From Anaerolineales bacterium (GTDB lineage Bacteria; Chloroflexota; Anaerolineae; Anaerolineales; Villigracilaceae): DNA of 64,000 bases. The stretch is taken from NCBI GenBank assembly GCA_016934715.1, contig JAFGSI010000064.1:1-64000 (forward strand), read 5' to 3'. Under the pieces are notes generated by a model. That model saw nothing but the letters and a program-made list of their open reading frames with translations, was not told the origin of the DNA and did no database searches. The position numbers were made by a program, and so were the translations under genes. This document shows positions 366-48,931 of this stretch, piece by piece; positions within the stretch are counted from its first letter, which is position 1, and each line of letters opens with the position of its first letter.

Positions 366-1250
366 ATGCCTCTCAGACGACAACCGATCGTCACCCTGCT
401 GCTGGGTATGATCCTGACCAGTTCCTTGTGGGGCTGCGCGTCAGGTTCCGCCGGATCGAGCTGGCAGGTACTGTCCGAGGCCGACTTCGGCCAGCCGACG
501 CTTTCCACGATGTTCCTGGACGCCGCCTTCGGGGTCACCACCGATCTGGGTGGAGGGATCCACTACACCGAAGACAGCGGCATGAGTTGGACCCGGGCCG
601 GGGTCGCCGGTAGGTCCAGGGTCGCCCTCGAGATCGTCGACGCGGACCTGATCTGGCACATCGGCTACGGCGGGGCAGTCCACCGCTCGACCGATCGGGC
701 CCGTACCTGGGAGTACCTGAGTTCCTTGCCCCACACCGGCCATATCGAATACGTCAGTTTTGCCGATGCAGCCTACGGATGGGCAGTGTCGACCGAAATG
801 GATGAGATCTTTACCACGGACGACGGCGCCCGGACCTGGAAACGGTTGCCCTTCCCGGAAGGCATGCTCCGGCCGGCGGCCCTGCACCTGCAGACATCCC
901 GAACCGGACTCCTGCTCGACGTAGCCGGGAATTTGTTCATCAGCCGCAACGGCGGGGAAACCTGGGAGCAGCGCTCGCTCAGCCTGGAGGACGATTGGAC
1001 GATCCCGGACCTGAACCATTCGGCCGCCCTGCGTTTCAGCGACGACGATCACGGCTTGGTGGCCGTCAGTCTGCTCGCCGAGGGTCAGACCCGGACCCTC
1101 GTCCTGCGCACCGCCGACGGGGGCCTGACCTGGACCGAGGAATCGCTGCCGGTCCCGGCGGGGATGTTCCACCTGAGCCGCGACGGGGTCTATCTGACCC
1201 ACGTTGACCTGCGCGACCACGGCCAGATCACCCTGTTGCGCGCCCCATAA
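366..1250 (+). CDS. Ycf48/BNR-like beta-propeller lipoprotein
   Basis: This is a 294-residue exported protein. The first 24 residues form a signal peptide ending in a lipobox-like LWGC, so it is probably lipid-anchored on the outer face of the membrane. The body has repeated Asp-box-like elements (TEDSGMSWTR, STDRARTWEY, TTDDGARTWKR, SRNGGETWEQ, TADGGLTWTE) spaced about 40-50 residues apart, the pattern of the sortilin/Ycf48 (BNR) propeller. Such proteins bind other proteins or glycans; no enzyme activity is implied. The stop at 1248-1250 is followed in the same frame by open coding sequence belonging to the next, broken gene. Confidence 0.7.
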   Translation: MPLRRQPIVTLLLGMILTSSLWGCASGSAGSSWQVLSEADFGQPTLSTMFLDAAFGVTTDLGGGIHYTEDSGMSWTRAGVAGRSRVALEIVDADLIWHIGYGGAVHRSTDRARTWEYLSSLPHTGHIEYVSFADAAYGWAVSTEMDEIFTTDDGARTWKRLPFPEGMLRPAALHLQTSRTGLLLDVAGNLFISRNGGETWEQRSLSLEDDWTIPDLNHSAALRFSDDDHGLVAVSLLAEGQTRTLVLRTADGGLTWTEESLPVPAGMFHLSRDGVYLTHVDLRDHGQITLLRAP

Positions 1251-1307
1251 AGCGGCGACCTGTGGGGCAAGCCGACCGAGAACCTGGAACGCATCTGCCA
1301 GTTCGGC

Positions 1308-2689
1308 GTGGAGGAGCTTGTCTTCCCGCGGCGCGGCCAGGACCACGAACGACCCTTCGAACAGGAGTTCTTTGATGCCGTGATCGCGGGTAACGCGTTG
1401 TGTTTCTGCGCCATCACCGACACATCCCTGAGCTGGTACCTGATCCCGCTGGTCAAGCCCGGCGACCAGTTCAGGACCGAGACGCCTGGCACTTGGCCGC
1501 CGGGTGGCAGGAGCACTGGCTGAAGACCGGCCTGGTCGAGGTCGAACCGGCCGACAACTTTCCCGATCAGGAGGGCTTCCAGACCTATCCCGGTCTGGAA
1601 CGGATCAGCGAATACCGTGAAAAGAGCGCTGAGGACGATGCCAGACGGACGATCACCTTTTCCCGCCTGGTGACTCACCGCAAGCAGGCGGAAGAATTCC
1701 TGCAAGATGGGATCACCGCCATGGATCAACAAGGATTTCGCACCTATTTGCAGAGCCGCCAGGTTCCCGAGGACAGGCTCGACGTCGCGCTGGCCCTGGC
1801 CGAGCGCTTCGAGGCCTACCTGGCCCAGCCCGGCAAGGACTACGACACCCAGAGTGCCTGGGACTTCTCCAGGGTCCTGATCGCCGAAGGCCTGAAGGGC
1901 GAGGAGAACTACATCACGCTCATCCGCTATGGCTGTTTCATTAAGAACGACGATGTCTTCGTCGCCATGCTGGAACTGGTTGACGGCGGGGAGGCCCACG
2001 AGAATTTGTACCGGCGGGTCAGCGAGCTGCATGGCGAGATCCGGCGCGACCAGATCTTCGCTGGGATCGGGGTGGCCCCCTACGGCACGCCCACGCCCGA
2101 CAAACCGGCCACCATGCAGGCGGTGATCGAAAGGCTGGAAGAGGCCATCGGAGCGGAGGCCTGCCGGGCGCTGCTGGCCGACAGTTTGCGTGACCTGCCT
2201 GACGAATACGCCACCGCCAGGCGCGAAAAGTACCTGGCCTGCAAGGATCTCGATGCATACCTGGTTATCCGCAAACAAGACGTCGACGCCCAGTTGGAAG
2301 CTTGCCAGCGCGATGCCCAGCTGATCTTCTCGCAGAAGATCACTGCCGAGGTGCTGGACTTCGTCTGCAGCCAGCCTGAGATGGGTGGTGGTGTGCGAGA
2401 GGGGGAGGTCATCTACGAGACCAAGATCCCCTCCATGACCGAGCAGTACCTGGCTGAAACCGACGATACCCTCAAGCGTTACTATTCCTGCCACTGTCCC
2501 TGGGCGCGTGAGGCGGTCAAGGTCAGGGGCAAGGTCCGGCCGATCTTCTGCAACTGCAGCGCCGGCGACCACAAGAGGCCCTGGCAGGGCCTCTTCGGCC
2601 AGAAACTGGAAGTCGAGGTCCTCGAAAACGTCCGGCAGGGTGATGAGCGCTGCCACTTTGCCATCCACCTGCCGGAGGGGATCCTCTAG
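1308..2689 (+). pseudogene. Frameshifted gene for a V4R-like cysteine-motif protein
   Basis: Coding potential begins in one frame (open from 1251, first usable GTG at 1308) and moves to another frame between about 1462 and 1476. The first frame reads through ..IPLVKPGDQ and the second continues QDRDAWHLAAGWQEHW.. to TAG at 2687-2689. Neither half makes sense alone, so this is one gene with a frameshift, real or from assembly. The C-terminal 90 residues contain YYSCHCPWAREAVK, FCNCSAG and RQGDERCHFAIHLP. This is the tail pattern of DUF6144/V4R-like proteins, whose Cys residues may bind a metal or small molecule. The N-terminal part is not recognised. A natural start codon is not obvious, so the 5' end may also be lost. 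Confidence 0.6.
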
Positions 2690-44220: not shown

Positions 44221-44850
44221 TTATCCCATCGGGGTCGTTTCTACTACAATTGTACACGCACTGTCGCCTGATGCAACACAACTGGACTCCTCTACCATGA
44301 AATTTCTCCCCCCCGACAACCAGTAGAGCGCCTCCTGGATCAGACCTACGGCCAGGTGGCAGCAGGGGCCATCGGTCTGGCGCCCCCAACACAAAGGGCA
44401 ACGCTCGATGTGCCACAGGAGTTGCTTCTCGCTCCATTCCAGACGCACCTGCTGGTCGGTGAACTGGTTGAACAGGGCCGCGAATGCCTCGCCCCCGGCT
44501 TTCAACTTGGCTGACAGGGGCAGCAGTCGGAACGCCAGATCGGTCAACCCGAGTTCGGGCCCGAACTCGCGCAGGCCATATTTAAGACAGGCCCTCCCGG
44601 TGCGCAGTGCCAGGCCACGACCACCGCGCGGGCCGTAAGCCTTTTCCAGGCCGACCTGCAGGCTGCTGATGTGTTCGAAAGGGATCTTCAAATCTGGATT
44701 GTGAGCAGGATAATTCCCAATATACCCGCCCAAGGCAGTCAGATTAAGAACCGCATTCACCCCATTGCGGCCGATGACCTCTTCCATCGCCAGCAGGATG
44801 ATCCGCCCCATGCGATTTGGATAGAAGTACCTTCCAGCAGACGTTTTCAT
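44221..44850 (-). CDS. V4R (4-vinyl reductase-like) small-molecule-binding protein
   Basis: This 209-residue soluble protein ends with the V4R hallmark: CPLCWGRQTDGPCC, a helix, then VEESSCVASGDSACTIVVE (E-x-x-C-x-A-x-G-D-x-x-C). V4R domains bind hydrophobic or metal-containing ligands and occur in BchJ and in sensor proteins. There is no catalytic prediction. It shares an ATGA overlap with the upstream alpha/beta hydrolase gene and ends four bases before the hexapeptide-repeat gene. A related Cys-rich tail occurs in the broken gene at 1308-2689. Confidence 0.75.
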   Translation of the reverse strand: MKTSAGRYFYPNRMGRIILLAMEEVIGRNGVNAVLNLTALGGYIGNYPAHNPDLKIPFEHISSLQVGLEKAYGPRGGRGLALRTGRACLKYGLREFGPELGLTDLAFRLLPLSAKLKAGGEAFAALFNQFTDQQVRLEWSEKQLLWHIERCPLCWGRQTDGPCCHLAVGLIQEALYWLSGGRNFMVEESSCVASGDSACTIVVETTPMG

Positions 44851-45644
44851 CCGCCCGGATTCTCTTCGTCCAGGAAATCTTTGAGCCGCTGTGCAAAAGG
44901 TTCCGGGTCATCCAGCATGATGAAATGGCCCGCTTTGGGATAACGCTCGATGCGGGCGTGCGGAACGCCTTCCAAGAGCGGCTGCCACTGCATCGGGTGA
45001 ACGATGATATCCTTGTCGCCGAACATACCCATCACCGGGATCTGGAGTTGGTCCAGCATCGGGCGCAGATCAGTGCGGCGCAGGGAGGCAATGCTGAGCA
45101 GGAACGACTCGAGCGTGGTTCGCGACAGGTCCTTGTCCATCATGTCGGAGAAACGCGCATCCTTACAGATGAGCGGCGCGGCGAGCCGCATGCTCAAACG
45201 AAAGCCCCACATCATATTGAACAACAGCCCTGCAATCAGCCGCCGCCCGGCCATCTTCAACGCCCAGGCCAGTGAAGATCCAACGATCGGCGAACCGACG
45301 ACCACCACCTTGCTAACCCTTTGCGGGTACTGGATGGCCACCGACAGGCTGACGGTCCCCCCCATACTGTGACCTACCAGCGGGGCCCGGGTGATGCCGA
45401 GGCGGTCCATGAATTGATCTACCAGCCTGACGAAGTCCTGGACGGCATATGTTTCTCGCTTCTTGCCGGACTCGCCAAACCCCCAGAAATCAAGTGCATA
45501 GGTACGGTAATAGCGACCCAGATAGGCCATGGTTTCCTGCCACAACCCCCAGGAACCCAACCACCCATGAAGCAGAATGACCGGGCGGCCACGCCCGTAT
45601 ACTTCGTAATGAACAATGCCCTGATCGGTGGTAATTGATGACAC
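44847..45644 (-). CDS. Alpha/beta hydrolase with intact triad
   Basis: This 265-residue protein shows HGWLGSW for the oxyanion hole, the nucleophile elbow GHSMGG with Ser93, Asp in FGDKDIIV and His in KAGHFIM. This is the pattern of esterases, epoxide hydrolases and C-C hydrolases. It is a paralogue of the nucleophile-less protein at 32287-33081. The 3' end overlaps the V4R gene by four bases (ATGA). The substrate is unknown; an acyl ester is a reasonable guess given the AAR-like gene. Confidence 0.85.
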   Translation of the reverse strand: MSSITTDQGIVHYEVYGRGRPVILLHGWLGSWGLWQETMAYLGRYYRTYALDFWGFGESGKKRETYAVQDFVRLVDQFMDRLGITRAPLVGHSMGGTVSLSVAIQYPQRVSKVVVVGSPIVGSSLAWALKMAGRRLIAGLLFNMMWGFRLSMRLAAPLICKDARFSDMMDKDLSRTTLESFLLSIASLRRTDLRPMLDQLQIPVMGMFGDKDIIVHPMQWQPLLEGVPHARIERYPKAGHFIMLDDPEPFAQRLKDFLDEENPGG

Positions 45645-45668
45645 GGTGGTTACAACAAAATGGAGAGA

Positions 45669-46211
45669 TTATTTCTCTCCACTCTCCATTTCAGCCAGGA
45701 TGCTGTACAACAATTCAAGCAGGATCGTTTTGACCGAATCACGATCCATGGCGACACAGGAAAGGAATTTGACCTTTGGATCAAGGCGCAGGGCGTGGCG
45801 CATGTCCTCGAGCTCCCAGGCGTCATTCATGTCCTGTTTGTTGGCTGCCACCACATAGGGTGTCGGTGCGTAAGCACGGAAAGTCTCGAGGATGGAGCGT
45901 GCTTCGCGAAAGGTCTCCGGACGCGTGCTGTCGACAAGGACAATGAACCCCAGCATCCCTTCCGACAGAATCTCCCACATGAAATCAAAACGCTTCTGCC
46001 CAGGAGTACCGAAGAGATACAACACCAGGTCTTCGTCCACCGTGATGCGGCCAAAGTCCATCGCGACGGTGGTTGCCTCTTTGACAGTCTTCTCGGCCTT
46101 GGTCGAGATCTTGCGTTCTGTCGAGACCACGTCAATTTCGCTGACCGACTTGATGAACTCTGTCTTGCCAGCGCTGAAGGGACCAGTGACAACCATTTTG
46201 ACCGTTTGCAT
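45669..46211 (-). CDS. MglA/CvnD-like small GTPase
   Basis: This 180-residue single-domain GTPase has P-loop GPFSAGKTEF, G3 LFGTPGQKRF, G4 NKQD and G5-like SCVA. TTVAMDFGRI in the switch I region is typical of the prokaryotic Arf-like/CvnD branch. These proteins work as switches in polarity and in Streptomyces conservons, usually with roadblock partners, which are absent here. ATG 46211 is preceded by GAGGA. The PATAN protein encoded just upstream is a likely partner. Confidence 0.85.
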   Translation of the reverse strand: MQTVKMVVTGPFSAGKTEFIKSVSEIDVVSTERKISTKAEKTVKEATTVAMDFGRITVDEDLVLYLFGTPGQKRFDFMWEILSEGMLGFIVLVDSTRPETFREARSILETFRAYAPTPYVVAANKQDMNDAWELEDMRHALRLDPKVKFLSCVAMDRDSVKTILLELLYSILAEMESGEK

Positions 46212-46232
46212 GCTCGCTATCCTCAAGAAAAG

Positions 46233-47048
46233 TTATAGAGAACGAATTCTGGTAATCAGGCGGTTGACCAACGTCTTTTGTTCTTCCTTGTCTTCCGTTG
46301 GGAAGACCCGCACCGGTTGCGGGATGGGAACCCCCTCCGGACGACAAATCTCCACCAGGCCTGCCTGCAGCAGTCCGTAAACGATCCGCCGGATTTCAAG
46401 ATCGTTCATCTTCGCCGCATTGCCGATCTGGCGGATGGTGTTCTTGGGGTTGATATATGAAACGACACGCCACTCTTCAACGTTCAGATTGACGTTGCGC
46501 ATATTGGCGTCCGGGCGGGCGGTGAATTTCAAGGCCATGTCCAGGCTCGGAATTTCGTCCTGGAGTTGCTCCCACTCGCGCAACTGGCGCGAACCTTCGA
46601 TGATCAGGTTTTCAAGGTCCAGGCGAACGTTGATGCGATCGTCGGGCGGCAGCTGGTCATTGTCAAAGCGGAAGAAGCCTTCTACCCAGGTAAACAAGCG
46701 GTGGATCACGTCGGTGGAATATTGCTGCAGATTCGCCAGGATGTCATCCTGGGAGACATAGCCGGCATTGATCAGCAGCAATCCGAGTTCTTTGTCCGAG
46801 ACTGAATTGCCGCGCTGCTGGATGGCCTTGTACTGCCCGGCAGACAGCTTGTTGGCCTTGAATAGAATATGGGCCAGGCTGGTGTCCTCGCGGCCGATCT
46901 GGGCAAAGGCCAGCTTGCCTTCGCGGAAAAACGCTTGAGCCGTCTCGTTGGGGCCTTCGACGACCAGGGTGCCCGTCTTGCGAGCCAGGTTGATGAGATT
47001 CAGAAGTTGCGTTATTGTGAAATCGCGCAGGTTGCCGCGCAGTGCCAT
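46233..47048 (-). CDS. DUF4388/PATAN domain protein
   Basis: This 271-residue protein opens with the PATAN core: LRGNLRDFTITQLLNLINLARKTGTLVVEG, then AFFREGKLAFAQIG. A helical segment (SAGQYKAIQQRG) and a second module with FTWVEGFFRFDNDQLPPDDR follow, as in Chloroflexota and Deltaproteobacteria DUF4388 proteins. A winged-helix-like tail (NTIRQIGNAAKMNDLEIRRI) ends it. PATAN proteins modulate response regulators and GTPase pathways. It is the first gene of the large cluster and lies next to the small GTPase. Confidence 0.82.
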   Translation of the reverse strand: MALRGNLRDFTITQLLNLINLARKTGTLVVEGPNETAQAFFREGKLAFAQIGREDTSLAHILFKANKLSAGQYKAIQQRGNSVSDKELGLLLINAGYVSQDDILANLQQYSTDVIHRLFTWVEGFFRFDNDQLPPDDRINVRLDLENLIIEGSRQLREWEQLQDEIPSLDMALKFTARPDANMRNVNLNVEEWRVVSYINPKNTIRQIGNAAKMNDLEIRRIVYGLLQAGLVEICRPEGVPIPQPVRVFPTEDKEEQKTLVNRLITRIRSL

Positions 47049-47096
47049 GATTGGGCCTCAAGCAACGCTCAGGATGAATTTGCGAATCGTTGAATC

Positions 47097-47125
47097 ATTA
47101 TACTTGTAAGGATGCCAAGCGTCAA
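47097..47125 (-). promoter_or_regulatory. Sigma70 promoter of the signalling/lipid cluster
   Basis: On the minus strand TTGACG (47125-47120), 17 bases, then TATAAT (47102-47097). Predicted start near 47090, 40 bases before the DUF4388 ATG. No other comparable promoter was found before 32.3 kb, so it may drive all ten genes. Confidence 0.75.
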
Positions 47126-47128
47126 ACG

Positions 47129-47158
47129 TTCAAACCTAATAAAACCGTATGTTATAAT
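47129..47158 (+). promoter_or_regulatory. Divergent promoter of the selenoprotein-trpS unit
   Basis: TTCAAA (47129-47134), 18 bases, then TATAAT (47153-47158). The start near 47165 leaves a 37-base leader. The -35 boxes of this promoter and the divergent one are only three bases apart, so the two may compete or be co-regulated. Confidence 0.65.
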
Positions 47159-47165
47159 TTTCGCC

Positions 47166-47185
47166 AATCCAATCCAATCCAATCC
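47166..47185. repeat. Four tandem AATCC units in the leader
   Basis: AATCC is repeated exactly four times at the expected transcript start of the selenoprotein unit. It is prone to slippage and so could vary in copy number between strains. Confidence 0.85.
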
Positions 47186-47201
47186 GCTAGAGGAAAACTC
47201 G

Positions 47202-47450
47202 ATGAAGCATAAGATCACGATCGTTTACTGTGCTGTTTGACAGTACACCAGCCGGGCCGTGGGCCTGGCGGACGAGTTGCTCCAGAAGTTGGAGCCCCAG
47301 ATCGAAGTTTTGACCCTCGACCCATCGGACGGCGGGCGCTTCGAAGTCAGCGTCGACGAACACCTGCTGTATTCCAAACTCCAGACCGGGCGCCATGCCG
47401 AACCAGGCGAGGTTGTCGGGCTGGTCACCCAATTCCTGAACCTGAGGTAA
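47202..47450 (+). CDS. SelW/Rdx-family selenoprotein (UGA = selenocysteine)
   Basis: ATG 47202, after an AGAGGA site, reads MKHKITIVYCAV, then TGA (47238-47240, codon 13), then QYTSRAVGLADELLQKL and on to TAA 47448-47450, for 82 residues. C-A-V-(TGA) is exactly the CxxU redox motif of SelW/SelT/SelH-type proteins, and the following Y..RA and C-terminal KLQTGRHAEPGEVVGLV match Rdx proteins. A stem-loop begins 11 bases beyond the TGA. The protein is a small thioredoxin-fold oxidoreductase. It would need SelA/SelB/SelC elsewhere in the genome. The trpS gene starts three bases after its stop. Confidence 0.85.
47252..47268 (+). promoter_or_regulatory. Bacterial SECIS-like hairpin
   Basis: CCGGGCC (47252-47258) pairs with GGCCTGG (47262-47268), seven base pairs with one G-U, leaving the apical loop GUG 19-21 bases after the UGA. 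Distance and a loop containing GU fit bacterial SECIS elements read by SelB. Confidence 0.65.
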
Positions 47451-47453
47451 TCC

Positions 47454-48443
47454 ATGCCCTCCAAGAAAGGCCGGGTCTTCTCCGGCATCCGTCCGACCGG
47501 GCGCGCCCACCTGGGAAATTACCTGGGGGCGATCAAGAACTATGTCGCCCTGCAGGATGAATACGAATGCGTCTACTGCATCGTGGATATCCATGCCCTG
47601 ACCACTGTCGAGGATACGCTCGACTTGCGGACCAATACCTTCGAAATGGCTCTCGACCTGCTGGCTGCCGGCATTCGCCCGGAGGAGACCATCCTTTTCA
47701 TTCAATCCCATGTCCCCCAGGTGACCGAACTGCACACCTTCCTCTCGATGGTGACGCCGCTCGGCAAATTGACTGACCTGCCAACGTTCAAAGACAAGGT
47801 TCGCCAGAATCCCAACAACGTCAACTATGGCCTGGTCGGTTATCCTGTGCTGATGGCCGCCGACATCACTCTCTACAGGACCGATCTCGTCCCCGTGGGC
47901 ATCGACCAGGCACCCCACATCGAGTTCACCCGCGAGATCGTGCGCTCCTTCAACTACCGTTACAACACGGACGTGCTCATCGAGCCCGGCATGAAGAACA
48001 CCGAGATTCCCAAAGTGCTCGGCATCGACGGCAAGGAGAAGATGAGCAAGAGCCTGAACAACCACATCGAGATCGCCGCCACCCCGGAGGAGACCCGTAA
48101 ACGGATCATGCAGATGGTGACCGATCCCCAGCGCATCAAGCGCGACGATCCCGGCAACCCCGAGGTATGCAACGTCTTCGCATTGCACAAGATCTTCACC
48201 CCGCAGGTGGATGTTGATATGATCGACGTCGAGTGCCGCCGGGCAGGGATCGGCTGCGTGGACTGCAAGAAACGGTTCGCCGAAAACTTGAACCAGGCCT
48301 TCGAACCCTTCCGCGCCCGGCGGGCCGCACTGGCCGCCCAACCAGCCCAGGTGCATGCCATCCTGGCCGACGGCGCCGAGCGCGCCAGAGCCCTCGCCGA
48401 GGAGACCATGCAGGCGGTCCGCCGCGCGGTGCAACTTCCTTAG
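47454..48443 (+). CDS. trpS: Tryptophanyl-tRNA synthetase
   Basis: This 329-residue class I aminoacyl-tRNA synthetase has the HIGH-equivalent GRAHLGNYLGA preceded by SGIRPT, GYPVLMAADITLYRTDLVPVG for tryptophan binding, and an exact KMSKS. It charges tRNA-Trp in the cytoplasm. Length is normal. A Cys cluster (CRRAGIGCVDCKKRF) in the anticodon-binding part is typical of the family branch. It is co-transcribed with the upstream selenoprotein (three-base gap). Confidence 0.96.
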   Translation: MPSKKGRVFSGIRPTGRAHLGNYLGAIKNYVALQDEYECVYCIVDIHALTTVEDTLDLRTNTFEMALDLLAAGIRPEETILFIQSHVPQVTELHTFLSMVTPLGKLTDLPTFKDKVRQNPNNVNYGLVGYPVLMAADITLYRTDLVPVGIDQAPHIEFTREIVRSFNYRYNTDVLIEPGMKNTEIPKVLGIDGKEKMSKSLNNHIEIAATPEETRKRIMQMVTDPQRIKRDDPGNPEVCNVFALHKIFTPQVDVDMIDVECRRAGIGCVDCKKRFAENLNQAFEPFRARRAALAAQPAQVHAILADGAERARALAEETMQAVRRAVQLP

Positions 48444-48490: not shown

Positions 48491-48931
48491 ATGCGCGCCC
48501 TGATACAGAAGGTCACGTCCGGCACAGTGAGCGTGGACAGCGATACCGTCGCCGCGATCGGCCGCGGGCTGGTTATCCTGCTCGGGATCGGTCACGCCGA
48601 CGGCGAGCGGCAGGCTCGCTTCCTGGCCGAGAAGATCGCCCAGCTGCGCATCTTTGAAGACTCGGCCGGAAAAACCAACCTCTCGGTCCTGGACATCGGC
48701 GGAGAAGCGTTGGTCGTCTCGCAGTTCACCCTGTATGCCGACACGCACAAAGGCCGCCGGCCGTCCTTCACCGACGCGGCCCTGCCCGAGGTTGCCGCGC
48801 CGCTCGTCGACCGGTTCGCCGAGTTATTGCGCACCCAGGGCGTCCCGACCCAGACCGGGGTCTTCGGGGCCCATATGCTCGTCGTGATCGCCAACGCAGG
48901 CCCCGTCACCATCTGGCTTGAAAAAGAATAG
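48491..48931 (+). CDS. dtd: D-aminoacyl-tRNA deacylase
   Basis: This 146-residue enzyme removes D-amino acids (and glycine from tRNA-Ala) from tRNA. Conserved motifs SQFTLYAD and NAGPVT, which form the dimeric active site, are intact. A GAGGAG site precedes ATG 48491, 47 bases after trpS; no terminator separates them. The stop at 48931 abuts the galK ATG. Confidence 0.95.

Follow-up and report, generated by a model that had tools for sequence, protein, structure and literature searches.

SelW-like selenoproteins of bacteria, recognised by an Rdx domain and a CxxU motif, have been described from Geobacter, Desulfotalea, Alkaliphilus and Symbiobacterium (PMC1794560), and others come from marine metagenomes (PMC1088965, PMC2398784), as far as the accessible parts of these sources go. 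In the same parts of PMC1794560, SelW-like proteins are counted among the selenoprotein families of bacteria, Cys forms being very few or missing in organisms that use selenocysteine (Sec), and Chloroflexi are credited with three selenoproteins of three families, while for ocean samples the accessible part of PMC2398784 gives SelW-like proteins as the most abundant family (427 Sec versus 56 Cys forms). The bacterial SECIS element is modelled, in the portion of PMC13188914 available to us, as a stem of 4-16 bp with a loop of 3-9 nt at 16-37 nt from the UGA, with G in the first two loop positions and MFE <= -7.5. In the accessible parts of the open-licence literature, no report of SelW in Anaerolineae or of a link between selW and trpS was found.

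The window, i.e., the whole stretch of DNA analysed here (64,000 nucleotides of contig JAFGSI010000064.1, assembly GCA_016934715.1, from an Anaerolineales bacterium of the Villigracilaceae, Chloroflexota), carries a gene of this ordinary kind, from the long-known bacterial SelW-like selenoprotein family, and established knowledge of selenocysteine is left unchanged by it. It is a short selenoprotein gene of the sort that ordinary annotation would cut at an internal GTG.

A SelW/Rdx-Type Gene with One In-Frame TGA

The features of the gene are the following:
47202-47450, forward strand: predicted SelW/Rdx-type selenoprotein gene, 82 residues, Sec13, stop TAA at 47448-47450
47238-47240, forward strand: in-frame TGA, predicted to be read as selenocysteine, conserved in 84/84 Rdx-bearing genomes and 80/80 further loci
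47251-47269, forward strand: SECIS-like hairpin, 8-bp stem, GUG loop, 18 nt from UGA to loop

The stretch 47202-47450 is a single open frame whose sole interruption is the TGA. With this codon read as a residue, the redox motif of the product is C-A-V-Sec, and the product matches Pfam Rdx (PF10262) over its full length (E 1.3e-19, 70.6 bits against a cut-off of 22.6) and NCBIfam CXXU_selWTH (TIGR02174) with 58 bits (cut-off 34.2). The highest NCBIfam score belongs to NF041051 SelTWH_Campy (72.5 bits), which lies below the cut-off of 88 of that model, so the product is not placed there. In an alignment of 30 Rdx sequences the Cys and Sec positions are among nine invariant columns, and a profile search against solved structures returned the bacterial Rdx protein 3dex (E 1.8e-14) and eukaryotic selenoprotein W 2npb (E 5e-4). 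Judged by its sequence, the gene is a member of the SelW/Rdx family, with a CxxU motif and a conserved UGA at the second redox position. The original prediction had described a frame open on both sides of the TGA, a C-x-x-(UGA) motif and this UGA position, and had proposed the comparison with SelW/Rdx homologues; all of this agrees with the present results.

It had also expected that a standard gene caller would miss the gene or start it at GTG 47259, where a mechanical open reading frame of 63 residues, lacking the redox motif, does begin. One could take this GTG for the true start and the upstream frame for untranslated DNA, as the 63-residue product still matches Rdx (E 2.6e-11). Such a product, however, would have neither the CxxU motif nor the first strand. 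The GTG is itself part of the hairpin loop, and the sequence ahead of it shows no evident ribosome site. Moreover, the codons ahead of the UGA include the invariant Cys and vary as codons do: over the nine codons before the UGA, variation at codon positions 1, 2 and 3 is 0.24, 0.19 and 0.58, while the stretch 30-60 codons upstream of the UGA varies equally (0.75) at all three. We rejected the internal start, which has practically no probability left.

Conservation and Spread of the UGA

Conservation was followed in 121 genomes, namely the own genome and those of 120 relatives, counting an Rdx match at E<=0.001. Such a match was present in 84/121 genomes; the best match in each of these 84 contains a single stop, which is a TGA, the same one over many genera and families; among these best matches (121 genomes searched) no Cys form of the gene was seen. 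A scan of named genomes, with search patterns that excluded the Sec codon itself, gave 350 relatives, of which the best 80 were kept, and the TGA stands at the Sec position in each of these 80. They are mostly assigned to Anaerolineae, Anaerolineales, Anaerolineaceae or Chloroflexi, and include the cultured Levilinea saccharolytica, Longilinea arvoryzae, Anaerolinea thermolimosa and Thermanaerothrix daxensis. Phylum-wide, 138 of 301 genomes had an Rdx match; in other orders of the own class, 7/7 among the matches listed carry the TGA, and beyond the class, copies with TGA occur alongside copies free of any stop. No relative turned up when viral contigs were scanned.

The selW gene with its in-frame UGA is thus, as far as can be read from the sequences, conserved throughout a bacterial order, and within Anaerolineales (Chloroflexota) it appears to be Sec-only. 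Two genomes of the same genus, in which selA is present, have no selW at all, so the gene is dispensable. One locus (L099, G111:C27) was left out of the 84 as a second, partial Rdx match in its genome (G111); it is an Rdx-like frame with UGA and without Cys, probably a decayed copy.

The TGA is one base away from both Cys codons (TGC, TGT), which would suit a Cys-type Rdx gene with a nonsense mutation, either as a pseudogene or through a sequencing error. Against this stand the same TGA in every one of the 84 relatives and 80 named loci and the variation of coding type before and after it. The conservation of the TGA refutes the pseudogene reading, and we regard it as hardly credible at all; nor did any relative carry the truncated or non-conserved frame at this place that had been named as an argument against a selenoprotein.

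Genes for Selenocysteine Decoding

The original prediction had made its case depend on selA, selB, selC and selD, and all four are present in the own genome: selA with 527 bits, selB with 357 bits and selD with 367 bits (all above cut-off), and selC with 70 bits against a gathering score of 47. ARAGORN identifies selC as tRNA-Sec with anticodon TCA (UCA). The host genome has a complete Sec-decoding gene set. Over the 121 genomes, a selA match accompanies the UGA gene in 80/84 genomes and occurs in 23/37 genomes without selW (Fisher p 1e-5), these counts including a few fragments and weak matches. The assemblies of the four selW genomes without a selA match are 60, 78, 88 and 93% complete.

The selD gene of the own genome (L180, G000:C14, ORF 522-1847, reverse strand) is itself probably a selenoprotein gene, with an in-frame TGA in SCAGU-ASKL, and most of the relatives' selD matches above cut-off likewise carry one TGA. 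This UGA lies near the N-terminus, at the place of the catalytic Cys or Sec of SelD.

A Hairpin under Selection

The stem of the hairpin is formed by 47251-47258 paired with 47262-47269 (8 pairs, including one G-U), with a predicted energy of -17.8 to -18.1 kcal/mol, and its 3-nt loop GUG (47259-47261) is the same GTG that a gene caller would take as a start. The position, the GU-containing loop and the start 11 nt past the UGA are as originally predicted; the stem length is not, as it has 8 pairs instead of 7. Upon folding, the hairpin fits the bacterial SECIS model and satisfies all limits given in the accessible part of PMC13188914 by its loop, stem, distance and energy. Among the relatives the model is satisfied in 79/84, in one or both of two fixed registers, and 5/84 fail its strict reading in these registers. 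An Rfam search of 47000-47600 gave three chance matches at E<=10 and no SECIS family; an Rfam match was not counted as a defining criterion for a bacterial SECIS.

How exceptional the hairpin looks depends on the null. Against dinucleotide shuffles of a 48-51-nt stretch it is unexceptional (z -0.63), while z is -2.73 against shuffles of its own 25 nt and -3.35 against synonymous codons. When the 84 relatives were recoded synonymously, the hairpin region folded better than expected (mean z -1.63, 31/84 with p<0.05), while six control offsets in selW gave mean z from -0.38 to 0.13, and between 2 and 8 of the 84 loci reached p<0.05 at each of them; codon usage was taken from each locus, and the combined p-value assumes independence and is not to be taken literally.

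The two registers lie about 4 nt apart. In register A, which prevails in the own family, the loop falls around nt 18-22 after the UGA, and in register B at nt 23-25, mostly as G-U-U or G-U-C. The split is inexact, being 52/32 by eye on the alignments and 53/31 by script, with 7/84 fitting both. Cells of the alignment in which both sides of a pair have changed number 30 in register B (9.6 after shuffling) and 9 in register A, and 0/500 shuffles reach either value, although with related sequences this is not a probability. In four A sequences CGG..CTG has become CGA..TTG, a change that alters neither of the two amino acids and leaves the pair intact. Codon permutation also favours register A (45 full stems against a null mean of 31.3, 0/2000), a result confounded by clade-shared codons. 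From these results it can be seen that the hairpin is under selection beyond codon usage and protein sequence, across the family.

Two of 16 loci from outside the order were set aside, namely L190, which covers the stretch of L188, and L199, which the pattern did not recover; of the 14 others, which belong to other orders and classes, 8 fit register B with >=6/7 pairs. Because of these loci, B appears to be the wider form and A a shifted one. On a tree based on TrpRS the register is clustered (8 changes, shuffled mean 16.8). This tree is weakly resolved and two of its rows (L055, L094) are very long and suspect, and for these reasons it was used only for register clustering. Two hairpin registers in one conserved protein region amount to a natural experiment on the mobility of bacterial SECIS elements.

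The UGA could also be read as Trp or Cys in place of Sec, either because the codon is reassigned in general or through leaky near-cognate readthrough. That tRNA-Trp can read through UGA is known in principle, and the gene that follows is trpS. However, UGA terminates 23/44 long open reading frames of the window and is the next stop of the selW frame in 22/85 loci, which shows that it is not reassigned genome-wide, and genome-wide reassignment was rejected. The complete Sec machinery, the selected hairpin and a UGA that coincides with the family's Sec/Cys position speak against Trp or Cys as well, and we consider this reading very improbable. In 21 of the 22 loci mentioned (L013, L020, L024, L028, etc.) the UGA terminates selW itself, and both meanings of the codon occur within ~70 codons in such loci.

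Promoter and Neighbouring Genes

Around selW, the following features were located:
47129-47158, forward strand: sigma-70-type promoter found by consensus scan, extended -10 TGTTATAAT at 47150-47158
47454-48443, forward strand: trpS (tryptophanyl-tRNA synthetase), TIGR00233 293.7 bits, above cut-off
48491-48931, forward strand: dtd (D-aminoacyl-tRNA deacylase), PF02580 E 2.9e-52, probably in the same operon

Only 3 nt separate the selW stop from the trpS start, and trpS has its own Shine-Dalgarno-like GAGGT (47444-47448). In 74/84 loci trpS lies downstream of selW on the same strand, with gaps of -4 to 213 nt, and dtd lies downstream in 66/84, including six without trpS in which dtd is directly next. 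The remaining loci without a downstream trpS are two at a contig edge and two with an opposite-strand trpS homologue ~1 kb off. A TG-N-TATAAT box occurs <=150 nt upstream of the selW start in 49/84 loci exactly and in 65/84 with one mismatch allowed, and in 0/82 control stretches inside the downstream gene, a control that is lenient since these stretches are coding and GC-rich. The placement of selW directly upstream of trpS as if in one operon, as originally suggested, is supported by the gene order, the shared promoter and dtd. Among the 16 loci from outside Anaerolineales, none had trpS or dtd near selW.

In eight relatives trpS is not preceded by selW, and in seven of these the box stands <=113 nt before trpS, which indicates that selW is discrete and can be lost without disturbing the operon; two genomes of the same genus without selW keep the promoter and trpS. 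Besides the selW-linked trpS, the own genome carries another trpS homologue (G000:C69:123881-124846), 39% identical to it, and two trpS homologues are also found in several relatives. A strong divergent promoter-like site (47097-47125, reverse strand, TTGACG-17-TATAAT) faces DUF4388, small-GTPase, hydrolase and V4R genes at 44221-47048.

With selW first in the selW-trpS-dtd order, its Sec UGA might additionally serve as a selenium sensor, and selW would be both an enzyme and a regulatory leader: when selenium is lacking, stopping at codon 13 would weaken translation of trpS-dtd or raise message decay, and tryptophanyl-tRNA synthetase and D-aminoacyl-tRNA deacylase would come under a selenium-dependent translational switch. 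The very short gaps to trpS, the single shared promoter and an arrangement kept across the order would suit such a switch, which, if true, would link tRNA charging and quality control in Anaerolineales with the supply of selenium. However, trpS has a Shine-Dalgarno-like site of its own, the promoter box stands directly before trpS in the seven loci without selW, and a second trpS homologue exists in the own genome. We find the switch quite unlikely.

Proposed Explanation and Comparison with Known Systems

Our preferred reading, to which we give a probability of roughly 0.96, is that selW encodes a SelW/Rdx selenoprotein into which Sec is inserted at the UGA by means of SelB and the hairpin, and which is transcribed together with trpS and probably dtd. 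Transcription from the promoter at 47129-47158 would yield a message for selW and trpS, probably also dtd; SelB with Sec-tRNA(UCA) would bind the hairpin, so that residue 13 would become Sec and the redox motif C-A-V-U. By its family, the product may act, with a redox partner, as a thiol-selenol oxidoreductase of the SelW/Rdx type. The constant trpS/dtd neighbourhood offers a testable hint to the role of bacterial SelW.

Eukaryotic selenoprotein W (2npb) and the bacterial Rdx structures (3dex, 2fa8, 2p0g) are sequence relatives of the product by profile search, although eukaryotic SelW has its SECIS in the 3' untranslated region, unlike the gene of the window (PMC1088965, accessible part). With the bacterial SelW-like proteins, as they appear in the available parts of the sources, it shares the Rdx domain, the CxxU motif, a hairpin just past the UGA and rare or missing Cys forms. 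It differs from them in two respects: the hairpin of most of the own family is closer to the UGA, by ~4 nt, than that of other lineages, and, unlike other bacterial SelW-like genes, selW of Anaerolineales is linked to trpS and dtd.
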